Assembly (NCBI GenBank): GCA_001899065.1
Contig: MKUZ01000018.1
Location: 1-64,000 of the forward strand
DNA length: 64,000 nt
Origin: Devosia sp. 66-22
GTDB lineage: Bacteria; Pseudomonadota; Alphaproteobacteria; Rhizobiales; Devosiaceae
Reading direction: 5' to 3'
The position numbers were made by a program, and so were the translations under genes. Numbering within the stretch: the stretch's first letter is position 1; each line of letters starts with the position of its first letter. Positions 23,797-26,442 of the stretch are shown in pieces. Below the pieces are notes generated by a model, which worked only from the letters and a program-made list of their open reading frames with translations, did no database searches and was not told where the DNA came from.

Positions 23797-26442
23797 ATGG
23801 CTACGAAGGCACCCGTGAAGGCACCTGCCAAGGCTGCGAAGGCAGCAGCCAAGGCGGCACCCAAGAAGTCCGCCGCAAAGGCAGAAACAAAAAAGAAACC
23901 CGCAGCCGCCAAGAGCGCTCCCAAGGCGGCAGTCAGGACTCCGGCCAAACCGGTCAAGAAGGCCAACGCCAAGGGGGTGGCCAAAAAGGGAGAGGTGAAA
24001 GCAGCGGCGCGGCCCAAGGCGGCGCCCAAGCCGGCAGTCAAAGTAAAGCCGGCGGCCAAGGCGAAGCCCGAATCGAAGGCGAAGCCGGCAGCAACGGCAA
24101 AGCCGGTCGTGAAGGCGAAGGTGGAACCAAAGGCTAGGCCGGAGCCTAAGAAGGCAGAGATCAAAGCCAAGGTTGAGGCGAAGCCCAAGGCGGCGCCTAA
24201 GCCGGCGGAAGACGCAAAGGCACCGGCCAAGGCCGTTGCTCCTCCCAAGAGCCAGGCAAAAGCCCCGGCGAAGCAAACTCCGGCGAAAGCCGCATCAGTA
24301 AAGACAGACGTAAAACCAGTGAAGACCGAGACCATTTCCGAGCCGAAGGCTGCGCCCGTCCCCTCTCCCAAAGCCGCTGCCAAGGCGCCGGCCAAGAACG
24401 GCAAGGACGACAAGGCTGCGGCCCCGGGCGACAAGCCCGAGGGTGCAGAAACTCCCGACAGTCCGCTGCTCGATCTGAGCGATGCCGCCGTCAAGAAGCT
24501 GATCAAGACGGCCAAGAAGCGCGGCTACGTCACCTATGAAGAGGTGAACGCGGTCCTGCCGTCCGAGGAAGTCTCGCCCGACCAGATCGAAGACATCATG
24601 GCGATGTTCTCCGACATGGGCATCAACGTCGTCGACGAGGACGAGGTCGAAGAGGCCGAGGCCGAGACGCCCGAAGAGGAGTCGACCGAGCTCGCCGAGC
24701 GCACCGGCACGGCCGTCGCCAGTAAGTCCAATGCGCGCGAAGGCTCCGACCGCACCGACGATCCCGTCCGCATGTATCTGCGCGAGATGGGGTCGGTGGA
24801 GCTGCTCAGCCGCGAGGGCGAAATCGCCATCGCCAAGCGCATCGAAGCCGGCCGCGAGACGATGATCGAAGGCCTGTGCGAAAGCCCGCTGACCTTCCAG
24901 GCCATCATCATCTGGCGCGACCAGCTCGCCGCCGCCGAAATTCTGCTGCGCGACATCATCGACCTCGAAGCGACCTATGCCGGCCCCGATGCCAAGCAAG
25001 CCGCGCCGGTGATGCCCGCCGAGGAGTACAAGCCCGCCGTCGCCGCCCAGCAGGTCAAGACGGAGAAGCCGGCCGCCGCGCCGCGCCGTGCCGCGTCCGG
25101 CGACGAGGACGACGACTACGTGCCCGAGGAGCCGCAGGCGCCGCAGGACCCGGTCGAGGACGACGACGACGATTTCGAGAACTCGCTGTCGCTGAGCGCG
25201 ATGGAAGCCGAGCTGAAGCCGCAGGTGGTCGAGACCTTCGACCGCATCGCCGACGCGTACGGCAAGATGCGCAAGCTGCAGGACAAGCACGCCGCCGATC
25301 GCAGCAAGCCGGTCACCGGCGCCGAGACCAAGAAGGTCGACACCTTCCGCTCCTCGGTGATCACCGACGTGAAGTCGCTGTCGCTCAACGCCTCGCGTAT
25401 CGAGAGCCTCGTCGAGCAGCTCTACGACATCAACAAGCGCCTGGTGCGGCTCGAGGGTCGCCTGCTGCGGCTCGGCGAAAGCTACGGCATCAAGCGCGAA
25501 GATTTTCTGGACGCCTATTTCACGCACGAGCTCGAAGAGAACTGGGCGCATGACGTTGCGCCGCGCTCCAAGGCCTGGGGTGAGTTCACCAAGCGCGAAG
25601 CCGATACGATCAAGGAAATCCGCGGCGAGATTCACACGCTCGCGACGGAAGCCGGACTCGATGTCACCGAGTATCGCCGCATCGTCCACAAGGTGCAGAA
25701 GGGCGAGCGCGAAGCGGCCATCGCCAAAAAGGAGATGGTCGAGGCCAACCTCCGCCTCGTGATCTCGATCGCCAAGAAATACACCAATCGCGGCCTGCAG
25801 TTCCTGGACCTCATCCAGGAAGGCAATATCGGCCTGATGAAGGCTGTCGATAAGTTCGAGTATCGCCGCGGCTACAAGTTCTCGACCTACGCCACCTGGT
25901 GGATCAGGCAGGCCATCACCCGCTCGATCGCCGACCAGGCGCGCACCATCCGCATCCCGGTGCACATGATCGAGACGATCAACAAGATCGTGCGCACGTC
26001 GCGCCAGATGCTGCATGAGATCGGGCGCGAGCCGACACCGGAGGAGCTCAGCGAAAAGCTCCAGATGCCGCTCGACAAGGTCCGCAAGGTCCTCAAGATC
26101 GCCAAGGAGCCCATCTCGCTCGAAACGCCGATCGGCGACGAGGAGGATTCGAACCTCGGCGATTTCATCCCGGACGTGAACGCGGTGCAGCCCATCGATG
26201 CCGCGATCCAGTCGAACCTGCGCGAAACCACGACCCGCGTGCTGGCGTCGTTGACGCCGCGCGAGGAACGCGTGCTGCGCATGCGCTTCGGCATCGGCAT
26301 GAATACCGACCACACGCTCGAGGAAGTCGGCCAGCAGTTCTCGGTGACCCGCGAACGCATCCGCCAGATCGAGGCCAAAGCGCTGCGCAAGCTCAAGCAC
26401 CCCAGCCGTAGCCGCAAGCTGAGGAGCTTCCTCGACAACTGA
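23797..26442 (+). CDS. rpoD: RNA polymerase primary sigma factor with Lys/Ala/Pro-rich N-terminal tail
   Basis: This is the housekeeping sigma factor that directs RNA polymerase to promoters. At 881 residues it is far longer than the roughly 610-690 usual in alphaproteobacteria. Residues 1 to about 220 are almost entirely Lys, Ala, Pro and Val in short repeats ([17 protein letters not shown]), resembling histone H1 tails. Region 1.1 then starts near [20 protein letters not shown]. Region 1.2 reads [21 protein letters not shown]. An acidic insert (EDDDDDFEN) lies in the non-conserved region. Regions 2 to 4 are standard ([40 protein letters not shown]). The tail is A-rich in codons and differs from the gene's own body. 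It follows dnaG. Confidence 0.97.

Follow-up and report, generated by a model that had tools for sequence, protein, structure and literature searches.

A lysine-, alanine- and proline-rich tail recently gained by the housekeeping sigma factor of a Devosia-type subclade and its putative role as a DNA grip

The window analysed here is a stretch of 64,000 nucleotides with a GC content of 66%, in which rpoD lies next to dnaG (Table 1). The rpoD product scored 918 bits against the NCBIfam model NF004208 (cut-off 555) over residues 218-881, an equivalog assignment as RpoD, and Pfam matched regions 1.1 and 1.2, the non-conserved region and regions 2, 3 and 4 in the order of a complete group 1 sigma-70 factor. 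In the whole genome (4.36 Mb) the Sigma70_ner profile detected this one gene. The best solved chain for the protein, 7ye1_F (652 residues), which we take to be Caulobacter RpoD, aligned through its residues 9-652 with residues 211-881 of the window RpoD (E 3.3e-263) and, unlike the latter, has no N-terminal tail. Further upstream, two adjoining minus-strand genes (19187-20404 and 18036-19253) presumably encode MFS transporters, both of one kind.

Table 1. Features of the rpoD locus, in window coordinates
Feature	Coordinates	Strand	Remarks
dnaG	21706..23640	+	Upstream neighbour of rpoD, start provisional; combined with rpoD in the species tree
Small hairpin	23764..23783	+	Just 5' of the rpoD ribosome-binding site, touching it
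GGAG ribosome-binding site	23783..23786	+	10 bases 5' of the ATG; equivalent ahead of MATK/MASK in genus members
rpoD	23797..26442	+	881 aa, ATG start; sole Sigma70_ner match in its genome
Lys/Ala/Pro-rich N-terminal tail	23797..24480	+	Residues 1-228, net charge +39, predicted disordered coil
Degenerate 18/54-base repeat (~KPAAKA) in the tail	24028..24142	+	Probable trace of repeat expansion
Sigma region 1.1	24478..24684	+	Residues 228-296; Pfam, 92 bits
Sigma-70 non-conserved region	24886..25641	+	Residues 364-615; Pfam
Disordered acidic insert, within the non-conserved region	24997..25188	+	Residues ~401-464, net charge -13

The 228 residues that precede the DAAVKK motif of region 1.1 comprise 24% lysine, 29% alanine, 15% proline and 7% valine. 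The first-pass annotation had described about 220 residues rich in these four amino acids at this place, and the description holds: together they account for 170 of the 216 N-terminal residues. Its starting position, 23797, was also right, but the end it gave, 24460, falls some 20 bases short of the actual one at about 24480. Lysine outnumbers arginine by 55 to 3, aromatic residues are absent and the longest run of lysines is three. In the C-terminal tail of histone H1, too, lysine, alanine and proline dominate and lysine is far more frequent than arginine, and the window tail shares these traits, along with its predicted disorder, with H1 tails and AlgP. It differs from them in showing no match to a globular linker-histone domain, in its near absence of S/TPK motifs (1, 0 and 2 across the long tails described below) and in not being a free protein. 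Pfam gave no match to a linker-histone domain, the globular winged helix, in RpoD at E ≤ 1. An AlphaFold model built with 31 RpoD sequences was of modest overall quality (mean pLDDT 56.3, pTM 0.39) and rendered residues 1-220 as coil (pLDDT 27-36), followed by better defined residues 221-280 (pLDDT 66-86). The tail is predicted to be disordered on this basis; searched alone, it retrieved 0 solved structures at E ≤ 10. Internal repetition is degenerate, the best-scoring array reaching 2.1 copies with 75% matches.

The 17 genus members that were read all share a MATK or MASK start with a GGAG at a similar distance upstream, and in the window this conserved pair sits 5' of the tail. After the first codon, the next in-frame ATG comes only inside region 1.1; the tail has six GTG codons in frame, for which GAAG is the best upstream match to a ribosome site. 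Since the start codon and the GGAG are common to tail-less relatives, the tail is, judged from sequence, very probably translated. A translation start at region 1.1, an eventuality raised by the first-pass annotation, is unlikely because the ancestral start and its GGAG precede the tail. Nor is the tail an artefact of a single assembly, since two other genomes carry long RpoD tails, G008 of 227 residues and G004 of 235, by a measure that gives 229 for the window.

These two genomes belong to a genus sample of 19, that of the window included, in which rpoD was matched in 17 (all except G006 and G007). The long tail is present in only three of the 17 (the window genome, G004 and G008), as leaders of 226-234 residues, and 12 others have leaders of 33-39 residues. 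Two leaders are intermediate, with 49 residues in G018 and 52 in G005. The G005 assembly is fragmented (750 contigs), and collapse of a repeat might in principle account for the shortness of its leader. These leaders of 49-52 residues (e.g. MATKAAAPKAAAKTVSKPPSKSGKETEK...) look like the first step of an expansion. In other genera of the family, rpoD was matched in 16 of 18 genomes, with open frames of 768 at most. A tree of dnaG and the rpoD core (19 taxa) grouped the three long-tailed genomes as a clade (bootstrap 83), which was joined next by G005 (53) and then by G018 (100 for all five). Grouping G005 with G008 was rejected by the AU test (p 0.029) but not by the SH test (p 0.060), and pairing G005 with G018 was not rejected (AU p 0.43), the AU run warning of too few replicates. 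A tree of rpoD alone, which did not settle this order, placed G005 next to G008 at low support (47); inclusion of dnaG changed that. As far as sequence comparison can establish it, these data show that the long tail is a recent gain, confined to one subclade of the Devosia-type genus. The earlier idea that the tail might serve as a marker of the Devosia-type lineage is not borne out, with so few of its genomes carrying it.

The three tailed genomes are 94% identical in the RpoD core and 39-52% identical in the tail. NG86 estimates of dN/dS were 0.36-0.58 for the tail, a range that depends on the alignment, compared to 0.09-0.12 for the core. Composition is alike in the three tails (K 21-24%, A 26-29%, P 15-16%), as are length and net charge (+35 to +39). 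The distribution of charge is also common to all three: per 40 residues it falls from +10 or +11 to about 0, then reaches -3 to -11 in region 1.1. The net charge of whole RpoD is +11 to +16 in the three tailed genomes versus -21 to -30 in ten complete tail-less members of the genus, the cores hardly differing (-22 to -25 versus -21 to -28). We simulated neutral codon evolution in 3000 runs with selection against stops only, starting from pure K/A/P repeats of three types. With 0.2 substitutions per site along each lineage, which is half of the core dS, and in a model without ongoing slippage, foreign residues were as few as in the worst of the tails in 3.5, 0.9 and 0.1% of runs for the three repeat types. 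This fell to 0.2% or less at 0.3, while at 0.1 substitutions per site neutrality was not rejected. When lysine only was considered, the probability of K ≥ 22.5% was above 0.99 at 0.2 and 0.52 at 0.3 (KA and KKAP repeats); taken by itself, lysine content agrees with decay of these lysine-richer ancestral repeats at 0.2-0.3. At 0.2-0.4 substitutions per site, foreign residues this few are a poor fit to neutral drift.

Codon use separates the tail from the core. GCA accounts for 20/67 alanine codons in the window tail, 14/62 in that of G004 and 7/61 in that of G008, against 0/65, 1/61 and 1/68 in the cores of the window and its two tailed relatives, and 5/78 in the window dnaG. In the window, AAA makes up 11/55 lysine codons in the tail versus 3/43 in the core, and GC3 is 0.70 versus 0.90. 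The contrast is weaker in G008. Recent slippage is argued against by the mixing of codons and the weakness of the remaining repeats. Taken together, the divergence, the preserved length, composition and charge, the simulation and the codon use read as selection of moderate strength whose target is composition and charge, not the sequence itself.

When the tail was compared with its own genome, it matched only itself among the 150 of 394 first-look candidates that were scored. The codon pattern K[AP]xK[AP]xK[AP] returned 7 matches at four other sites of this genome versus 2 in a backward control, a weak test as the pattern misses the rpoD tail itself. The single repeat run found in this way, at C30:276659, was rejected as a source of the tail: it falls in an ORF of 961 residues, presumably a SEL1-repeat/peptidoglycan-binding protein, where it forms a short K-rich linker. 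In the case of topoisomerase I, 19 genomes of the genus were matched and 17 read. An H1-like, K/A/P-rich repeat C-terminus was present in 16 of these 17 TopA (L194-L210, the window's own being L209), and in the 17th, from G012, the frame stops early, apparently at a contig end. The idea that lysine tails grew generally across the subclade was discarded, as this TopA end is present with or without an RpoD tail. Because of this independence, we regard the RpoD tail as a separate event.

We then define a tail as 80 or more residues ahead of region 1.1 with K ≥ 15% and a net charge of at least +15. With ATG starts, 26 of 173 measured loci pass, corresponding to 19 different genomes and 12 families; G579-G582 pass too and add four genomes in two of those 12 families. 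Two families carry tails in all their genomes (f31, 8/8; f50, 3/3). In f31, a one-genus family (L183-L190), RpoD tails are K/T/A-rich and 178-260 residues long, and four genomes share an identical stretch near region 1.1, KVVKASATSTQAVKRSEPKKKP. With GTG or TTG starts, G418, G434, G437 and G335 pass, in three further families; the corresponding tails (L165, L167, L173, L174) have 112-202 residues and net charges of +19 to +52. Searches restricted to ATG miss these four loci. The total amounts to at least 27 genomes in 15 families of Pseudomonadota, 24 of them in 12 alphaproteobacterial families and 3 in other classes.

Only frames of 760 or longer were read in the surveys, and all counts are lower bounds. 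The class survey matched 137 of 139 genomes; 14 genomes other than the window's had such frames and 11 of them pass, which gives a tail in at least 12/137 genomes with the window included. The phylum survey matched 143 of 145; five genomes of other classes were read and 3 pass among 99 matched (a count of rows). The order survey matched 294 of 297, and among the matches listed, roughly half of the rows, all seven with such frames were read and at least five pass; G060 comes from the survey covering other genera of the family, not from that of the order. Several long frames were set aside, either because they are not basic tails (L151, L153, L154, L163, L182) or because they fail on charge or lysine (L175, L176, L179, L180). 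The expectation that such a tail is not the alphaproteobacterial norm was correct, although tails are commoner than the first-pass annotation had thought, and the possibility it had kept in mind, that all alphaproteobacterial RpoD are tailed, is false. Since most genomes show the short-leader state, several independent gains across Pseudomonadota are likely; the gain in this genus is the one that was placed on a tree.

The closest parallels come from Actinobacteria, described here as far as the accessible parts of the cited papers go. The primary sigma factor HrdB of Streptomyces is named with Ku and HupS as a carrier of lysine repeats, which are linked to GC-rich genomes (PMC7398561). Mycobacterial SigA has a long disordered N-terminal extension (PMC10011835, PMC5511352). 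The comparison with HrdB and SigA made at first pass is thus supported in print for the lysine repeats of HrdB; for a lysine-rich SigA extension we found no statement, and the word 'lysine' occurs 0 times in the accessible part of PMC10011835. Like these proteins, the window RpoD is a housekeeping sigma factor with a long disordered extension. It differs in that its tail precedes an ordinary region 1.1 and arose recently within a genus; actinobacterial extensions have no apparent structural relationship to region 1.1 (PMC5511352), and the lack of a sigma-70-like region 1.1, used here as a mark of the HrdB/SigA type, does not apply to the window protein, given its Pfam match. Common descent with the actinobacterial extension is not indicated, as 14/17 genus members are tail-less, frames in other genera of the family reach 768 at most and the tail is limited to one subclade, a judgement drawn from the genus and its family. 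The C-terminal domain of actinobacterial topoisomerase I likewise consists of degenerate, H1-like, lysine-rich repeats on a DNA-acting enzyme in a GC-rich genome; here the tail is N-terminal, on a sigma factor, and DNA retention is putative. Without its lysine repeats, Streptomyces topoisomerase I keeps high-affinity DNA binding and falls off more readily (PMC7398561).

On balance, we favour the reading, which we hold to be somewhat probable, that the tail is a disordered polycation giving sigma and the holoenzyme a non-specific grip on DNA. Sequence and phylogeny show that a short ancestral leader grew in one subclade into a Lys/Ala/Pro polycation of about 230 residues ahead of region 1.1, disordered by fold prediction. 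The growth most likely started from a short K-P/A repeat, and comparison and simulation support the view that composition and the falling charge profile were then kept while the sequence drifted. The tail would not enter the cleft of the RNA polymerase, which is argued to have no room for the mycobacterial extensions of 143-205 residues (PMC5511352). Outside it, the tail could contact the phosphate backbone non-specifically, hold sigma and holoenzyme near the nucleoid and make them leave promoter DNA more slowly, much as lysine repeats keep topoisomerase I on DNA. That tails of this kind recur in 27 genomes and 15 families probably speaks for a DNA-retaining tail, as does, by analogy, the H1-like lysine-repeat end that TopA of the genus already has. 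Against it stand the relaxed codon use of the window tail, which fits weak constraint, and M. tuberculosis SigA: promoter binding in SPR and complementation were unchanged after removal of 42, 92 or 132 N-terminal residues, and only a deletion of 179 failed (accessible part of PMC10011835). A further point against it is that the two models proposed for mycobacteria are at odds over whether the extension promotes or impedes the loading of DNA (PMC5511352). In favour of the grip, removal of the SigA extension is cited as destabilising a promoter-fork complex (Lin et al., cited in PMC5511352).

We advance more tentatively, as possible rather than probable, the wider proposal that Pseudomonadota have repeatedly, and here recently, made their housekeeping sigma factor nucleoid-binding through an H1-like tail, every housekeeping holoenzyme carrying its own DNA tether, tunable by charge or acetylation. 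A lysine-repeat primary sigma factor is already known from Streptomyces; what seems new is that one proteobacterial genus recently gained such a tail before an ordinary region 1.1, and that tails recur across Pseudomonadota. Our search of the open-access literature, of partial coverage, found no report of lysine tails on proteobacterial RpoD. RpoD is highly conserved, and a single genus in which its net charge moves from about -28 to +14 constitutes a natural experiment. Close relatives with and without a tail offer a clean test of how disordered basic tails affect promoter search and open-complex stability, a role that is left open for mycobacterial SigA in the accessible part of PMC5511352. 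The recurrence in at least 15 families suggests that the sigma-70 N-terminus is a hot spot for tail gain.

The foremost alternative, unlikely in our view and still worth weighing, is a nearly neutral expansion, in which slippage lengthened a K/A/P repeat of a disordered leader that was tolerated because it hinders nothing, its composition reflecting the repeat process or its youth rather than a function. The low identity and high, alignment-dependent dN/dS of the tail, its relaxed codon use, the 14/17 genus members that manage without it and a lysine content explicable by decay from a richer repeat would all agree with this, as would the function retained by M. tuberculosis SigA lacking 132 residues. 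However, length, composition and charge profile are the same in three lineages, foreign residues are scarcer than drift readily allows at 0.2-0.4 substitutions per site, mixed codons and merely degenerate repeats indicate that slippage is not recent, and a similar composition recurs in 15 families.

It is improbable that the tail acts instead inside the protein or the RNA polymerase, tuning autoinhibition or access to the cleft by binding to the acidic region 1.1, to the acidic insert or to surfaces of the polymerase. The tail does adjoin an acidic stretch directly, with a conserved charge profile. The acidic insert noticed at first pass is real, and AlphaFold gives pLDDT < 50 for residues 396-463; the accompanying suggestion that it balances or binds the tail fails, since all 17 genus members read, tailed or not, have it at 60-65 residues and a net charge of -12 or -13. 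Being the same in tailed and tail-less members, the insert is, by this comparison, unrelated to the tail; nor does the core charge show any matching change, and the fold model gives the tail no confident position. More improbable still is a regulated surface that would report the state of the cell to the holoenzyme through RNA or polyphosphate binding or acetylation, for which precedents exist in the H1-like AlgP, acting at polyphosphate granules (PMC9239181), and in a deacetylase that raises the DNA affinity of HupS (PMC11229371), both taken from partial texts. Hardly credible at all is an annotation artefact with translation beginning at or near region 1.1: the low complexity, the different codon use and several overlapping ORFs in other frames might suggest it, but the start and GGAG before the tail match those of tail-less relatives and the tail offers neither an ATG nor a good internal site.

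Inverted repeats of different sequence occur at the place of the small hairpin in several members of the genus and family. In seven such sequences, hairpin stability was not clearly higher than in shuffles, with z of about -1.6 in four cases, -1.1 in one and about 0 in two. Located at the rpoD ribosome-binding site, the hairpin may take part in translation control.
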